Position numbers and translations under genes: made by a program | The notes under the pieces: generated by a model | Databases searched by the model: none | Seen by the model: the letters and a program-made list of their open reading frames with translations, nothing else | What the model was told of the DNA's origin: nothing | NCBI RefSeq assembly: GCF_009695815.1 | Contig: NZ_VUNE01000003.1 | Span: forward strand, 124,001-188,000 | Reading direction: 5' to 3' | Length of the DNA stretch: 64,000 nucleotides | Origin: Peptostreptococcus porci | GTDB taxonomy: Bacteria; Bacillota; Clostridia; Peptostreptococcales; Peptostreptococcaceae | Shown: positions 17,280-60,740 of the stretch, in pieces | How positions within the stretch are numbered: the stretch's first letter is position 1 | Layout of the letters: each line of letters opens with the position of its first letter

Positions 17280-17615
17280 AAAAAAAGTCCCTTGGCCATA
17301 ATGACCAAGAGACGAATATACCGCGTTACCACTCTTGTTGACAGCTACGCAATAAGAATACCAATGTACAAAAAAATCCCTCAGTCATAAATGACCAAGA
17401 GACGAATATACCGCGTTACCACTCTTATTGACAGATAGACTGCCCTCTCAACCCCTTAAGGCGGGAAACCTATTAGAATACTAAATTTCTTCCAATAATC
17501 TCCAGAGCTCTTTTCACAAATACTTCCAATATTGGGCTCACACCATATCCCAACTCGCTGAAAATTCCGTAAAGCTACTTTCTCTATCACTGATTTTCTA
17601 AACTATTTAGCTATG
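17280..17615 (-). ncRNA. T-box leader with duplicated antiterminator/terminator module
   Basis: The minus strand has a T-box stem I (AGAGAAAGTAGC near 17580 and GGTGTGAGCCC near 17540), then the T-box sequence AGAGTGGTAACGCGG at 17425-17411 and a 12-bp terminator with a T-tract at 17376-17370. A second T-box sequence and terminator follow at 17335-17280 with no second stem I. The two modules are exactly 90 bases apart; 17300-17344 and 17390-17434 agree at 44 of 45 positions. The leader senses an uncharged tRNA and controls the ABC importer. The specifier region reads GTGAAAAGAGC, compatible with AAG (Lys), AGA (Arg) or GAG; I cannot fix the register. Confidence 0.9.
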
Positions 17616-55018: not shown

Positions 55019-55205
55019 AACCATATCCTCCTAATTAGTAATAAATAGTTAGTAATAATAAAAAAGTGAAAAAAAGCGACTCAAAAATATAAAGTCATAA
55101 TTATTCTCAAATCAGTCATTTATCCAATAACAAATATTAAAAATATATAACATAGCCTTATATTTTCGTATCATCCTTTTCCCACCAAAAGATCATGACA
55201 GTTAT

Positions 55206-55358
55206 TATATAGCAGGTCTCCTGACTTAACTTCAACCTCTGATTTCGCCTTCCCCGAACACAGGTGGCATTTGAAATCTTCGTCTGTAACACAGTAGAGT
55301 GAGCTGTTCCGGATTCAAACCGTATTCCCTTTTCAACATCGTTCAATGTCACTATATA
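55206..55358 (-). ncRNA. Cobalamin riboswitch
   Basis: On the minus strand the aptamer has AAAAGGGAATACGG, GAATCCGGAACAGC, the B12-box region ATGCCACCTGTGTTCGGGGA and the closing AGTCAGGAGACCTGC. P1 pairs TATATAG (55358-55352) with CTATATA (55212-55206). It precedes the corrinoid methyltransferase operon by about 190 bases. No clear intrinsic terminator lies between, so the switch mechanism is not evident. Control by cobalamin fits the operon's cofactor. Confidence 0.95.
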
Positions 55359-55682
55359 AAATATGAAAACAATTAAAACAACGTTTTCAATAAAATATCA
55401 AAATATTTACTAAACTTCTTTTCACGTTAATATTATCACACTAAAGTGTTCTAGTCTAATTGTTATTATCTATAGTGTAATATACGAATTATCAGTTTTT
55501 TCAATGGAATGTATTCTTTGATCAGTATTATTTTCATATAAACATCCCTAGGCTCAGACTCTATTTTAGAAAATTTATTTTTTTATTTACATTTCGTATT
55601 TACAAAACTCAAAATATACTTTATAATGAATAACTAACCGATAGATAGATAATATCTACCTATTAATATAACTAAATACGAT

Positions 55683-55850
55683 TGGATAGAGGCGCAAATG
55701 ACATCAGTAGTTTCAAACAATGAGAGCAATCAGTTTGATTCGAAAGGGGATTTTGCCGAAATGATATTGGTATTGCTCGACTGATATCGTTGGAATACTT
55801 GTTAACAGCAAGTGTTTTGTCATTATCATAAGATAATGGAGTGCTAACCA
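55683..55850 (+). ncRNA. Lysine riboswitch (L box) aptamer
   Basis: The plus strand shows the L-box order GATAGAGGCGC, AAGGGGA...GCCGAA, ACTGATATCGTTGG and the closing ATAATGGAGTGCTA. P1 pairs TGGATAG (55683-55689) with CTAACCA (55844-55850). It lies upstream of lysC and the whole lysine operon. A terminator follows at 55890, and a second copy of the closing sequence plus another terminator follows that. Confidence 0.93.
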
Positions 55851-55889
55851 CATTTTGACTATAATTGTATCAGCCCTATAGGATTTATT

Positions 55890-55924
55890 AGACGAATGTT
55901 TGGTTAACCACATTTGTCTTTTTT
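55890..55924 (+). terminator. First riboswitch-controlled terminator before lysC
   Basis: AGACGAATGT pairs with ACATTTGTCT (one G-U), with TTGGTTAACC at the tip and a T-tract. Its 5' arm (AATGTTTGGTTA) can alternatively pair with TAACCACATT at the end of the aptamer, giving a simple lysine-dependent switch. Confidence 0.85.
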
Positions 55925-55927
55925 AAC

Positions 55928-56027
55928 ATAATGGAGTGCTAGCCAGATACATTGTCATAATTGTCGATAAAAATATACACGCTAAATCAAAGGACAAATG
56001 TAGTGAGCTGCTACACTTGTCCTTTTT
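55928..56027 (+). terminator. Second copy of the switching sequence and second terminator before lysC
   Basis: ATAATGGAGTGCTA (55928-55941) repeats the aptamer's closing strand at 55833-55846. ATACATTGTC downstream of it can pair with the 5' arm of the next hairpin (GACAAATGTA). That hairpin, AAAGGACAAATGTAG/CTACACTTGTCCTTT (55989-56025), has a T-run and ends 30 bases before the lysC start. Confidence 0.85.
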
Positions 56028-56054: not shown

Positions 56055-57260
56055 ATGAATAAAACAACGGTACTAAAATTCGGTGGATCATCAGTGAGCA
56101 CTATCGAAAAAATCAAGTCAATTTCGACCAGTCTAAAGGATAGGGTTGAAAAAGGAGAAAAGCTTATAGTTGTCGTTTCAGCAATGGGAAAAACCACTGA
56201 TTCACTGCTAAATCAAGTAAATCAAATAACCTCAAATCCCGATGTCAGAGAGCTAGATACTCTTCTAGCAATAGGTGAACAGACCACCATTTCACTAATG
56301 GCAATCACCTTAAACGACATTGGTGTTAAATCCAGATCTTTAACAGGTTTACAGGCTGGAATAAAGACATTTGGTCAGCATACAAAAAGTAAAATTGCCG
56401 ATATAGATTCAATATTTTTGAAAAATGAATTAAACGAATTTGATGTTCTTGTAGTAGCAGGATTTCAAGGGTACAATGAAAATTTAGAAATAACAACTCT
56501 TGGTCGTGGCGGTTCTGATACGAGTGCCGTTGCATTGGCGGCATCATTAAACGCACCATGTGAGATATACACCGATGTTACCGGAGTTTTTAGCACAGAT
56601 CCTAGAATTTTTCCGAATGCAAAGAAGCTTGAACAGGTAAGCTATGAAGAAATGTTGGAGTTGTCTGCTCTGGGCGCAGGCGTCTTAGAAACTAGATGCG
56701 TTGAAATTGCGAAAAATTACAACGTACCACTATATTTGGGAAAAACACTATCAGAAGAAAAGGGGACATGGATAATGGAAAGTTCAAATTTATTAGAAAA
56801 GAAAATAGTTACAGGAGCGGCTTTGGATAAGGATATTTTACACGTTACCCTGTCTTGTAAAGACTGTTCGACAATGTTTGTAAAGGATTTATTTGACAAG
56901 CTTGATGAGTTTGGAGTAAATATAGATATGATTAGCCAAGTAATTTCAAATAATATTATCAATATTTCATTCACTTGCAAGGATACAGATAGAAATTTCT
57001 TAAATAGATCGCTGGAAAATCTATCTACTAGCTATCCAAATATAGACTGTTCCATCGATTCAAGCTGTTGCAAGGTATCTATAGTTGGATCAGGTATGAG
57101 AGATGTAAGTGGTGTGGCTGCAAGAGCATTTAGAACTCTTTGTAAAAATGGTATAGAATTTTTACAGGTGACAACTTCAGAAATATCAATATCATTTGCA
57201 CTAAAAAAAGACGATGGAAAAGAAGCAATCAGACTTCTGTGTTTAGAGTTTAATATATAA
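56055..57260 (+). CDS. lysC: Aspartate kinase
   Basis: A 401-residue monofunctional aspartokinase, first step of lysine synthesis. The kinase signature KFGGSSVS is at residue 8; VVSAMGKTTD, TTLGRGGSDTSAVALA and YTDVTGVFSTDPRIF follow. Two ACT domains occupy residues 265-401 and would bind feedback inhibitors. I chose the ATG at 56055, after GGAGG; an upstream TTG overlaps that site. It is the first gene of a lysine operon and stands behind a lysine riboswitch with two successive terminators. Confidence 0.97.
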   Translation: MNKTTVLKFGGSSVSTIEKIKSISTSLKDRVEKGEKLIVVVSAMGKTTDSLLNQVNQITSNPDVRELDTLLAIGEQTTISLMAITLNDIGVKSRSLTGLQAGIKTFGQHTKSKIADIDSIFLKNELNEFDVLVVAGFQGYNENLEITTLGRGGSDTSAVALAASLNAPCEIYTDVTGVFSTDPRIFPNAKKLEQVSYEEMLELSALGAGVLETRCVEIAKNYNVPLYLGKTLSEEKGTWIMESSNLLEKKIVTGAALDKDILHVTLSCKDCSTMFVKDLFDKLDEFGVNIDMISQVISNNIINISFTCKDTDRNFLNRSLENLSTSYPNIDCSIDSSCCKVSIVGSGMRDVSGVAARAFRTLCKNGIEFLQVTTSEISISFALKKDDGKEAIRLLCLEFNI

Positions 57261-57290: not shown

Positions 57291-58274
57291 ATGGCAATAT
57301 TTGCAATAGTAGGTGCTACAGGCGTAGTCGGAACAAAAATGATAGAAAGATTAGCAGAGAGTGAGTTAAAGGTTGACAAACTATATCTAATGGCTTCTGC
57401 CAGATCAGTTGGAAAGAAAATAAAATTTAGAGATATTGAAATAGAAGTAGAAGAATTAAATGAAAATTCTTTTGATAAAGATATTGACTATGCACTATTT
57501 TCAGCAGGAGGAAGCACATCTCTAGAGTTTGCTCCTATAGCAGAGAAAAATGGTGTAATCGTAATAGACAACTCTAGTGCGTGGAGGATGGATCCAGAAA
57601 TTGATTTGATAGTGCCGGAGTGTAATAAACCGACTCTTCAGAGAAAAATTATTGCAAATCCTAACTGCTCAACAATTCAATCAGTTGTTCCTCTTAGACC
57701 ACTTCACGACGCTTTTGGTCTATCACATATTACATACACAACTTATCAAGCAGTTTCTGGCTCTGGTAAGGGTGGTATAGATGATCTTTTAAATGGACAA
57801 GAAGGAATTGAGCCAAAGAAATATCCACATCCAATTTACAACAATGTGTTGCCACATATTGATGTATTTCTTGAAAATGGATATACAAAAGAAGAGATGA
57901 AAATGGTAAACGAAACTAAGAAAATTCTATCACTAGACGACTCTGTAGGCATTTCGGCAACTTGCGTTAGAGTTCCTGTATTAAATTCACATTCAGTTGA
58001 AATCGATGTAGAATTCAAAAAGGAAACTACTGTTGAAGAAATAAGAGAAGTATTAAAAAATGCCCCTGGTGTAATTTTGGTGGATAACGTTCAAGAAAAT
58101 GAATATCCAATGCCTATCAACGCAACAGGAATTGATGAGGTCCTAGTAGGAAGAATAAGAAGAGATATCTCTAGACCTAATGGATTCCACATATGGTGTG
58201 TGGCAGATAACATTAGAAAGGGAGCCGCTAGCAATGCAGTTCAGATTGCAGAGATGATAGAAGCAAGCAAATAA
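57291..58274 (+). CDS. asd: Aspartate-semialdehyde dehydrogenase
   Basis: A 327-residue enzyme reducing aspartyl phosphate to the semialdehyde. It has the NADP site IVGATGVVGTKM, the active-site Cys in ANPNCSTIQ (about residue 125) and the His/Arg region VRVPVLNSHS. Length is normal. GAAAGGAG precedes the ATG, 30 bases after lysC. It is the second gene of the riboswitch-controlled lysine operon. Confidence 0.97.
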   Translation: MAIFAIVGATGVVGTKMIERLAESELKVDKLYLMASARSVGKKIKFRDIEIEVEELNENSFDKDIDYALFSAGGSTSLEFAPIAEKNGVIVIDNSSAWRMDPEIDLIVPECNKPTLQRKIIANPNCSTIQSVVPLRPLHDAFGLSHITYTTYQAVSGSGKGGIDDLLNGQEGIEPKKYPHPIYNNVLPHIDVFLENGYTKEEMKMVNETKKILSLDDSVGISATCVRVPVLNSHSVEIDVEFKKETTVEEIREVLKNAPGVILVDNVQENEYPMPINATGIDEVLVGRIRRDISRPNGFHIWCVADNIRKGAASNAVQIAEMIEASK

Positions 58275-58307
58275 AAAGAAAATATACTTGTAGAAAAGGA
58301 GAATATT

Positions 58308-59216
58308 ATGACAAAGTTATTTTCGGGAGTTGCAACCGCACTTGCGACGCCAATGTTGACAAATGGTGATATAGATTTTAAAGCATATGAAAATTTAGTA
58401 AAATTTCAACTTGAAAGTGGAATAAATGGATTGGTTGTTTCAGGAACAACTGGGGAAGGATCTACTCTTACAATAGATGAAAAACTAGAGCTTCTGAAAA
58501 TGACTCTGGCTTTAAGAGGAGATAAGTATGATTGTCCTGTTATTTTGGGAACTGGTGCGAACAACACTAAATCTGCAATTCAACAGACTATTCTAGCAAA
58601 AGAAAATGGTGCAGATTTTGCCTTGGTTGTTACTCCATACTATAATAAGACAAGTCAACAAGGATTAATCGCTCACTACTATGCAATTGCGGATGCAGCT
58701 GATATTCCTATTATTCTATATAATGTTCCTGGTCGTACTGGAATGACAATACAACCAGAAACCGTTGTGGAACTAGCAAAGCATAAAAATATAGTGGCAT
58801 TAAAGGATGCAACTGGCGATATGAAGTACCTTTCAAAATTAAAAGCTTTACTAGGTGAAGATTCTGATTTCGTTCTTTACAGTGGCGACGATGGTACTTT
58901 CTTCGATTTTCTTACTCATGGTGGAAACGGAGTAATAAGCGTCGTTTCAAACTGCACGCCAAAAGCCTTTATAAATGTCTTTAAGCAATACAACAAAGGA
59001 AATATAGTCGATAGTAGAAATCTACAAAATGCATTAAATCCTTTCATCTCTGCTCTATTCTCGGATGTAAGCCCTACTCCATTGAAGGCTGTCTTGAAAT
59101 ATATGGGCTATGGCGATGAAAACTTTAGATTACCGCTTATTCCAACTAATGAAAAAGTTAGAAATAATGTAATTGCCGAATATAATTCGTGTTTAAAACA
59201 TGAAAATAACCTTTAA
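58308..59216 (+). CDS. dapA: 4-hydroxy-tetrahydrodipicolinate synthase
   Basis: A 302-residue TIM-barrel aldolase condensing pyruvate with aspartate semialdehyde. VSGTTGEGSTL is the family signature, the catalytic Tyr is in LYNVPGRTG, and the Schiff-base Lys is in IVALKDATGD (about residue 164). GGAGAA precedes the ATG. It lies 33 bases after asd and 15 before dapB in the operon. Confidence 0.97.
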   Translation: MTKLFSGVATALATPMLTNGDIDFKAYENLVKFQLESGINGLVVSGTTGEGSTLTIDEKLELLKMTLALRGDKYDCPVILGTGANNTKSAIQQTILAKENGADFALVVTPYYNKTSQQGLIAHYYAIADAADIPIILYNVPGRTGMTIQPETVVELAKHKNIVALKDATGDMKYLSKLKALLGEDSDFVLYSGDDGTFFDFLTHGGNGVISVVSNCTPKAFINVFKQYNKGNIVDSRNLQNALNPFISALFSDVSPTPLKAVLKYMGYGDENFRLPLIPTNEKVRNNVIAEYNSCLKHENNL

Positions 59217-59231
59217 TCGGAGGAAAAAATA

Positions 59232-59999
59232 ATGAAAATAATTTTGAGTGGATATGGCACAATGTCAAGAATTGTTGAAGCTCTTGCAATAGAAAAAGGT
59301 CACGAAATAGCTGGCATATTTTCACTTCAAGAAATAGAAAACCCACCATATCCTGTTTATAACAAGGTTGAAAATATTCATTCTGCAGACGTAATAATAG
59401 ATTTTTCTCATCCAGACAATGTTGCTCCACTTCTTGAAGGTGCTTCAATTCACAAGACGCCTATTGTTGTAGCAACGACTGGTGCCAGAGAAAGACTACA
59501 AGATTTGATGGACGAAGCATCAAAGAGTTGCCCTGTGTTTTTCAGTGCCAATATGAGCTACGGAGTTCACGTATTGACAAAAGCACTTGAGTTTTTAACT
59601 CCTCTATTGTCAGATGGGTTCGATATAGAGATAATAGAAAAGCATCACAACAAGAAGATTGACGCTCCGAGTGGTACCGCAGTGAAGCTACTTGAAGCAA
59701 TACAAAATTCATATACAGCAAGCAAAAAAGATAGTTCAGATACAACAGGAAAAACTTACTCACCTATCTATGACAGATCTACTGGCGAACACAAGAGAGA
59801 TAAAATGGAGATAGGAATGAGCGCAGTTAGGGGCGGAACGATTGTCGGTGAACATGAGGTTCTTTTTGCAGGAACTGACGAGGTTATTGAAATAACACAT
59901 AGAGCACAGTCGAAAAAGCTGTTTGCTGATGGCGCAATTAAGGCGGCAGAAAGTATCTCAAATAAAAAACCGGGATTCTATACTTTCGACACAATATAA
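59232..59999 (+). CDS. dapB: 4-hydroxy-tetrahydrodipicolinate reductase
   Basis: A 255-residue DapB with an abbreviated N-terminal nucleotide loop (ILSGYGTMSR), VVATTGARERLQDL, the substrate loop IEKHHNKKIDAPSGT and HRAQSKKLFADGAIKAA at the C-terminus. It lies between dapA and dapD in the lysine operon. A second dapB is at 48290-49054. This operon copy is expected to be the lysine-regulated one. Confidence 0.96.
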   Translation: MKIILSGYGTMSRIVEALAIEKGHEIAGIFSLQEIENPPYPVYNKVENIHSADVIIDFSHPDNVAPLLEGASIHKTPIVVATTGARERLQDLMDEASKSCPVFFSANMSYGVHVLTKALEFLTPLLSDGFDIEIIEKHHNKKIDAPSGTAVKLLEAIQNSYTASKKDSSDTTGKTYSPIYDRSTGEHKRDKMEIGMSAVRGGTIVGEHEVLFAGTDEVIEITHRAQSKKLFADGAIKAAESISNKKPGFYTFDTI

Positions 60000-60023
60000 T
60001 AATCAATAAATAAGGAGAATAAT

Positions 60024-60740
60024 ATGGCAAGAAACTTTACTTCAGAGGAAATAATTAATTATATAGCAACATCAACAAAAACTACACCCGTAAAAGTATA
60101 CATTAAGGGTGATTTGGAAAACATATCTTTACCAGTAGGTGTAAAGGATTTTGGAGATGAAAACTCAAAAACTCTTTTTACAGACTTAAAAACATGGGAA
60201 GAAATACTTGAAAATAATAGAAAAATCATTGTAGATTTCGTCGTTGAAAATGATAGACGTAATAGTGCTATTCCACTAATGGATCTAACAGCTGTCAATG
60301 CAAGAATTGAACCAGGCGCATTTATCAGAGAGCATGCCGTTATCAAAGATAATGCTGTGGTAATGATGGGTGCAATAATAAACATCGGTGCAGTAGTTGG
60401 AGAAGGAACAATGATTGACATGGGTGCTGTTCTTGGTGGACGTGCGACAACTGGAAAAAATGTTCATGTTGGAGCTGGAGCTGTATTAGCCGGAGTAATA
60501 GAACCGGCAAATGCAAACCCTGTTGTTATAGAAGATAACGTACTTATCGGAGCAAATGCAGTTGTTCTTGAAGGAGTTAGAGTTGGGAAAAATTCAGTAG
60601 TCGCATCTGGTGCGATTGTAACAGAGGACGTTCCAGAAAACTGTGTAGTTGCTGGAGTTCCTGCGAAAATAATCAAGAGAACTGATGAGGTTAATAGTGA
60701 AAAAATAAGTATTGTCGAAGCGTTGAGAAGCTTGGACTAA
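60024..60740 (+). CDS. dapH: Tetrahydrodipicolinate N-acetyltransferase
   Basis: A 238-residue left-handed beta-helix acetyltransferase of the DapH (YkuQ-like) type, which puts lysine synthesis on the acetylated branch. The N-terminal domain is followed by hexapeptide repeats [15 protein letters not shown] and [20 protein letters not shown], and [16 protein letters not shown] with the family's Asn-Pro. Length matches DapH, not the succinyl-transferase DapD. It is followed by the matching M20 deacetylase. The acetyl-diaminopimelate aminotransferase gene is not in the window. Confidence 0.95.

Follow-up and report, generated by a model that had tools for sequence, protein, structure and literature searches.

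The lysC leader of Peptostreptococcus porci carries a single lysine riboswitch aptamer that is followed by two closing elements and two predicted terminators. With a probability of about 60%, we take it to be a transcription-terminating OFF riboswitch that arose by tandem duplication of the terminator and the aptamer's 3' half, one sensor gating two terminators in series. One aptamer with two switching and terminator modules had been proposed in the preliminary description of this DNA, and it is supported by the single RF00168 match, the two closing elements, the two predicted terminators and the recurrence of the layout in seven of eight lysC leaders. Coordinates below refer to the window, that is, the whole stretch of 64,000 nucleotides that was analysed, and features lie on its forward (+) strand unless stated otherwise.

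A single aptamer with a repeated closing element

A search with the Rfam model RF00168 (gathering score 30 bits) matched the window leader once, at 55679..55854, with 99.3 bits and over the full length of the model (1-182), in line with the single L-box aptamer suggested earlier. Tandem (double) riboswitches are defined by at least two complete aptamers and by an expression platform for each unit. The window leader has only the one RF00168 match, but it does have two predicted terminators, each with a candidate antiterminator.

The closing strand of the aptamer, ATAATGGAGTGCTA, is found at 55833 and again at 55928, as had been described, and is part of an extended repeat of 25 nt (55829-55853 versus 55924-55948, 88% identical, 95-nt spacing). 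Each copy of the closing element consists of the P5 3' strand, the GGAGTGCTA core and the P1 3' strand. Copy 1 (55833..55850) is supported by the repeat and the RF00168 match, copy 2 (55928..55945) by the repeat and the conservation of its core. Both have a common partner in the P1 5' strand (55683..55689), which can pair with either 55844-55850 or 55939-55945. The proposed pairing of both CTA(A/G)CCA copies with TGGATAG thus holds, with one mismatch each at the same place (A-A and A-G, respectively). The P5 5' strand (55821..55827) can form seven pairs with copy 1 (55832-55838) and six with copy 2 (55928-55933). Since the repeat spans the P5 strand and the conserved core besides P1, it points to re-formation of the aptamer.

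The mismatch in P1 (55684-55689 with 55844-55849 or 55939-55944) is a general feature of these leaders: CTARCC, which places two mismatched purines midway in P1, is present in 15 of 15 lysC platforms, including the only platform of G001. Nine leaders of transporter-like genes from the same genomes have CTATC at the place where the lysC platforms have CTARCC. By eye, 14 of the 15 platforms also contain a three-codon frame, AUG-GAG-NGC-UAR (at 55836 and 55931 in the window), which is probably a by-product of the aptamer consensus.

Predicted terminators, antiterminators and folding energies

Two terminators after one aptamer had also been claimed, and a predicted hairpin with a U-run is indeed located 3' of each copy of the closing element. 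The putative intrinsic terminator 1 (T1, about 55890..55924, with TTTTTT) has a hairpin energy of -10.3 to -10.8 kcal/mol, and the putative intrinsic terminator 2 (T2, about 55990..56027, with TTTTT) one of -15.0 to -16.3 kcal/mol; a simple terminator scan of the region detected neither T1 nor T2. Complementarity between each copy and the terminator that follows it could be retraced for both pairings named before. The 5' side of candidate antiterminator 1, TAACCACATT (55845..55854), is complementary to AATGTTTGGTTA (55895-55906), a pairing for which the cognate-pairing test given below also speaks. For candidate antiterminator 2, the 5' side TACATTGTC (55948..55956) forms nine pairs, with one bulge, with GACAAATGTA (55993-56002).

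When the window leader was folded, the T1 decision appeared balanced, with -57.4 kcal/mol for aptamer plus T1 versus -57.3 for antiterminator 1, the free fold being lower by 5 in each case. As long as T2 is incomplete, closure on copy 1 costs 1.1 kcal/mol relative to the free fold and closure on copy 2 about 6 to 8; the latter cost rises to 8-10 kcal/mol once T2 is complete. Antiterminator 2 is weak (both antiterminators together -64.9 versus -73.0 for the free fold, with the 3' arm of T2 absent). According to these calculations, the copy-2-closed state is not favoured at equilibrium, and lysine binding or co-transcriptional folding would need to pay for it. The predicted pairing energies thus do not single out the copy-2-closed state.

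Conservation of the second closing element and pairing across species

Conservation was examined in six diverged species; G007 was left out as a near copy of G000. Mean pairwise identity across these species is 91% for the 12-nt core of copy 2 and likewise 91% for that of copy 1. In both cores the variation is confined to two positions, GGAG(N)GCTA(R)CC, so that copy 2 varies only where copy 1 does. The linkers are 49% (copy 1 to T1) and 45% (copy 2 to T2) identical, compared to 47% and 44% in shuffles, and fourfold sites of lysC are 24-59% identical among the six species, which is near saturation (83% for the near copies G000 and G007). With its core at 91% next to linkers at shuffle level, the second closing element is conserved beyond neutral expectation. 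The terminator stems are intermediate (T1 79%, T2 70% identical), and the P5 strand is less conserved in copy 2 than in copy 1 (62% versus 78%).

The alignments suggest that copy 2 is under some constraint to remain an aptamer closing element. If pairing with T2 were the only constraint, both sides could drift together; by eye, however, the terminator loops (the probable pairing partners of the core) vary from species to species, while the core does not. As the terminator stems are conserved, pairing with T2 may supply part of the constraint on copy 2.

A terminator-like hairpin could be located 3' of all 15 platforms, two of them by eye. These are the module-2 terminators of G004 (-13.2) and G008 (-17.0), which replace weak and unrelated automatic picks (-3.1 and -3.7, respectively) and whose T-runs are short (TTTTCT and TTTCT). 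Duplexes between closing elements and terminator arms were more stable for cognate than for non-cognate combinations, with means of -13.8 versus -11.6 kcal/mol. This test comprised 13 platforms, with G007 dropped, and 4 of 20000 permutations gave a value as low, a proportion that is not an exact probability because the species are related. In module 1 of G005 and module 2 of G008, the preference is reversed.

The P1 duplex has practically the same energy with either copy (within 0.3 kcal/mol in each of the seven species). The helix is short and contains a mismatch, and the best chance 12-mers in the leaders give duplexes at least as strong as that with copy 2. Pairing of P5 with copy 2 forms in five of the seven species but is lost in G004 (+0.9 kcal/mol) and G008 (+1.6 kcal/mol); in these two, such pairs cannot give a complete copy-2 aptamer.

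Genomic context and distribution within Peptostreptococcus

The aptamer is located upstream of a lysine-biosynthesis operon, as judged from Pfam matches: lysC for aspartokinase (56055..57260, PF00696 and ACT domains) is followed by asd, dapA, dapB and dapH (57291..60740), with genes for an M20 peptidase and an alanine-racemase-like protein 3' of dapH. A consensus scan gave a candidate promoter at 55599..55627 (TTTACA-17-TATAAT, 11 of 12 positions), which is weak, as the region has 12 such sites versus 10.0 (sd 3.4) in shuffles. Back to back with the lysine riboswitch, in divergent orientation and with ~300 nt between them, there is a cobalamin riboswitch (55194-55371, minus strand, 91.1 bits), 5' of genes that by eye resemble methyltransferases and a corrinoid protein. 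The window also harbors a T-box leader (17395-17599, minus strand, 114.5 bits).

The window genome has two lysine riboswitches. Altogether, nine Peptostreptococcus genomes gave 17 RF00168 matches, eight before lysC and nine before a transporter-like gene (NhaC-like by eye). The transporter leaders have a single closing element in 9 of 9 cases. A second closing element is present in seven of the eight lysC leaders, at a copy spacing of 71 to 171 nt, while the lysC leader of G001 has a single platform with one closing element. Relatives that lack the second module had been named in the preliminary description as evidence that would speak against its proposal. The outcome is mostly in favour of the proposal: seven of the eight lysC leaders keep module 2, and G001 is without it. 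In G003, the best lysC match is distant (41% identity) and is found on a different contig from the sole aptamer match of this genome.

When the lysC tree included two long-branched outgroups, the single-platform G001 joined the tandem G005 (85/89); the tree without an outgroup is mostly unresolved. The grouping with G005 leans, with weak support, towards loss of the second module in G001 as the likelier reading.

Searches for further cases

We took a census of 140 RF00168 matches in 61 genomes (9 from the genus, 28 from the rest of the family and 24 from the rest of the order); the aptamer search behind it used stricter filters, by which weak aptamers were lost. In the window, the 20-nt tail of the aptamer recurs downstream with z = 7.8 relative to mononucleotide shuffles. 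Recurrence of the own tail with z > 4 was found in 7 of the 140 riboswitches, and these are exactly the seven tandem lysC leaders of Peptostreptococcus. Three further loci with z from 3.2 to 3.8 were taken as chance. The regular expression GAGNGCT, applied to the 320 nt that follow each of the 140 aptamers, matched in G029, G033, G010, G011, G032, G024, G055 and G044 as well, all with z < 3 for their own tail; those in G055 and G044, the two that were looked at further, resemble ordinary single ON switches with the motif within coding sequence.

A wider scan looked for two closing cores with an intervening T-run in one genome per species (84,980 species), the allowed gap being too short to match the window itself. 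It gave 14 matches, among them two from Peptostreptococcus and three from Oscillibacter (L057, L063 and L066). Four of these five were confirmed directly by Rfam, and L066 only in a whole-genome search (44.3 bits). The other nine contained no lysine aptamer at the gathering score. An order-wide pattern search under the same gap limit, and hence no census, matched 3 of 297 genomes (G002, G006 and G204), and a class-wide search 4 of 391 (G000, G002, G617 and G596). The matches in G617 (L224 and L227-L230) were rejected; they belong to a repeat array, CRISPR-like by eye, whose repeat contains CGGAGCGCTAATTGCAAC. Of 200 genomes in the family of G298, only G298 itself matched a pattern made for the Oscillibacter form. 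In the sets searched, the layout is rare.

Proposed mechanism and alternative explanations

If the leader works as an OFF switch with one sensor and two serial decisions, P1 would close on copy 1 in the presence of lysine; antiterminator 1 would be blocked and T1 would stop transcription. When lysine is scarce, copy 1 would pair with the 5' arm of T1 and polymerase would pass. After this passage, the 5' part of the aptamer would be free to close on copy 2 with its P5 3' strand, GGAG-N-GCUA core and P1 3' strand. Lysine bound there would block antiterminator 2, and T2 would fire. One sensor half would then serve two serial decisions, with lower leak-through at high lysine. Lysine control of T2 and the tighter or two-step lysine response suggested in the preliminary description are both inferred.

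Alternatively, lysine might control module 1 alone, T2 being a backup whose fixed efficiency is set by the competition between antiterminator 2 and T2. We consider this unlikely, although several observations would suit it: T2 is the stronger hairpin of the two in G000, it is favoured over antiterminator 2 at equilibrium, and its stems retain 70% identity across species, in two of which copy 2 has degraded P5 pairing. A mere backup does not readily explain, however, why identity in the copy-2 core reaches 91% and its variation is limited to positions that also vary in copy 1, with linkers at shuffle level, and the differences that we see by eye between the terminator loops, the likely partners of the core, argue in the same direction. 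Copy 2 could also be kept for another role, such as a pause or protein site, a competitor that opens P1, or a signal like the tiny AUG-GAG-NGC-UAR frame. The occurrence of this frame in nearly all platforms would be in agreement with such a role, and, to judge from the loss of P5 pairing in two species, re-formation of the full aptamer is not universal. Yet the frame follows from the aptamer consensus, no Shine-Dalgarno sequence is seen by eye before it, and the copies are coupled to terminator-like hairpins in every platform; we regard another role as rather improbable.

The least credible explanation is a neutral relic of the tandem duplication that either has not decayed yet or has been homogenised by recombination between the copies. 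T1 and T2 do look alike by eye in most species, and G001 is without the module. But the linkers and the fourfold sites indicate that ample time has elapsed, by which the relic was already disfavoured, and a conserved stretch of ~12 nt is probably too short for recombination to be the cause. A relic therefore seems highly improbable.

Oscillibacter leaders of opposite sign

The Oscillibacter leaders L057, L063 and L066 differ in sign from the serial OFF switch proposed for Peptostreptococcus. In each of them, both copies of the closing element form the 5' arm of a hairpin that is followed by T's, an arrangement that fits a switch which lysine turns ON. The first gene behind L057 belongs to the BKACE family (Pfam) and appears by eye to be kce; the next genes resemble, by eye, kdd, kamA, kamD and kamE of lysine fermentation. 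In PMC5584792, kal and kce are presented as positively regulated by lysine riboswitches, so that the gene kind is the same as in the Oscillibacter leaders; the main text of that article uses neither "tandem" nor "terminator". In L063 and L066, the T2 stem is mismatched where CTATC still fits P1.

Among relatives of these leaders, 50 of ~150 matches were examined, a non-random choice that included 20 mostly lower-scoring ones, and 48 of the 50 were testable. Of these, L191, L192, L193 and L195 have two copies like those of L057, L063 and L066. L203 and L204, from one genome (G570) and with a kal-like gene downstream by eye, each repeat 16 nt of their own tail without a mismatch. In both, the duplication extends over P5 loop, core, P1 3' strand and hairpin; it is near-perfect and looks recent. 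A run of at least four T's is absent after hairpin 1 in L191, L192 and L193 and after hairpin 2 in L195, L203 and L204. Both hairpins are therefore terminator-like only in L057, L063 and L066, which are the leaders that had been found by requiring a T-run. Weaker stretches resembling a second copy in L202, L205 and L172 (10, 11 and 11 of 16 matches, respectively) were not counted. In L172, TTTGGAGTGCTATTTCC lies ~18 nt after the aptamer and before a separate terminator-like hairpin, possibly a further partial copy.

Because sign, genes and lineages differ, the Oscillibacter and Peptostreptococcus forms presumably arose separately. In the ON form, copy 1 would fold into its own hairpin once polymerase is past T1, and the 5' strand would be released to copy 2, so that this form, too, would have two serial gates on one sensor. 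It is conceivable, at somewhat less than even odds, that the two forms represent a class of riboswitches with a reusable 5' half, in which one strand closes successively on two 3' halves and which has separate OFF (Peptostreptococcus lysC) and ON (Oscillibacter kce/kal) origins. The lack of a U-run after several Oscillibacter hairpins makes this somewhat less probable. If it is true, transcripts of the ON form would be saved only when the sensor leaves copy 1 and binds again on copy 2, in effect a kinetic proofreading step for lysine.

Relation to known riboswitch architectures

The Peptostreptococcus leaders share their aptamer, target operon and terminator/antiterminator logic with the L box (RF00168) OFF switches before lysC and dap genes, but here, unlike in those, one aptamer has its closing half and terminator in duplicate. 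One sensor is also combined with two platforms in T-box leaders that have a single specifier and two terminator/antiterminator units, although the T-box sensor is for tRNA.

In its accessible part, PMC9481103 mentions 14 double lysine riboswitches, double (pseudo-cooperative) riboswitches being independently functioning units in tandem. They likewise make two serial termination decisions on one ligand, but they consist of complete units, whereas here the 3' half alone is repeated and the 5' half is common. The tandem glycine aptamers treated in the same source are also partial riboswitch duplications, of the converse layout with two aptamers and one platform. This part of PMC9481103 lists cooperative aptamers that act on one platform, complete riboswitches in tandem and various logic gates; a class with one aptamer and several platforms is not among these architectures. 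Neither did such a class turn up in the texts covered by our full-text literature searches (with PMC11477304 and PMC2258182, each seen in part, among the matches), which covered few subscription papers.

In the routes to a sharper response that we found described for riboswitches, either the aptamer or the whole switch is repeated. Repeating only the closing half and the terminator, if our reading of the Peptostreptococcus lysC leaders is true, would be a cheaper route to low leak. It would also mean that a ligand-binding RNA can be dismantled and re-formed within a single transcript.
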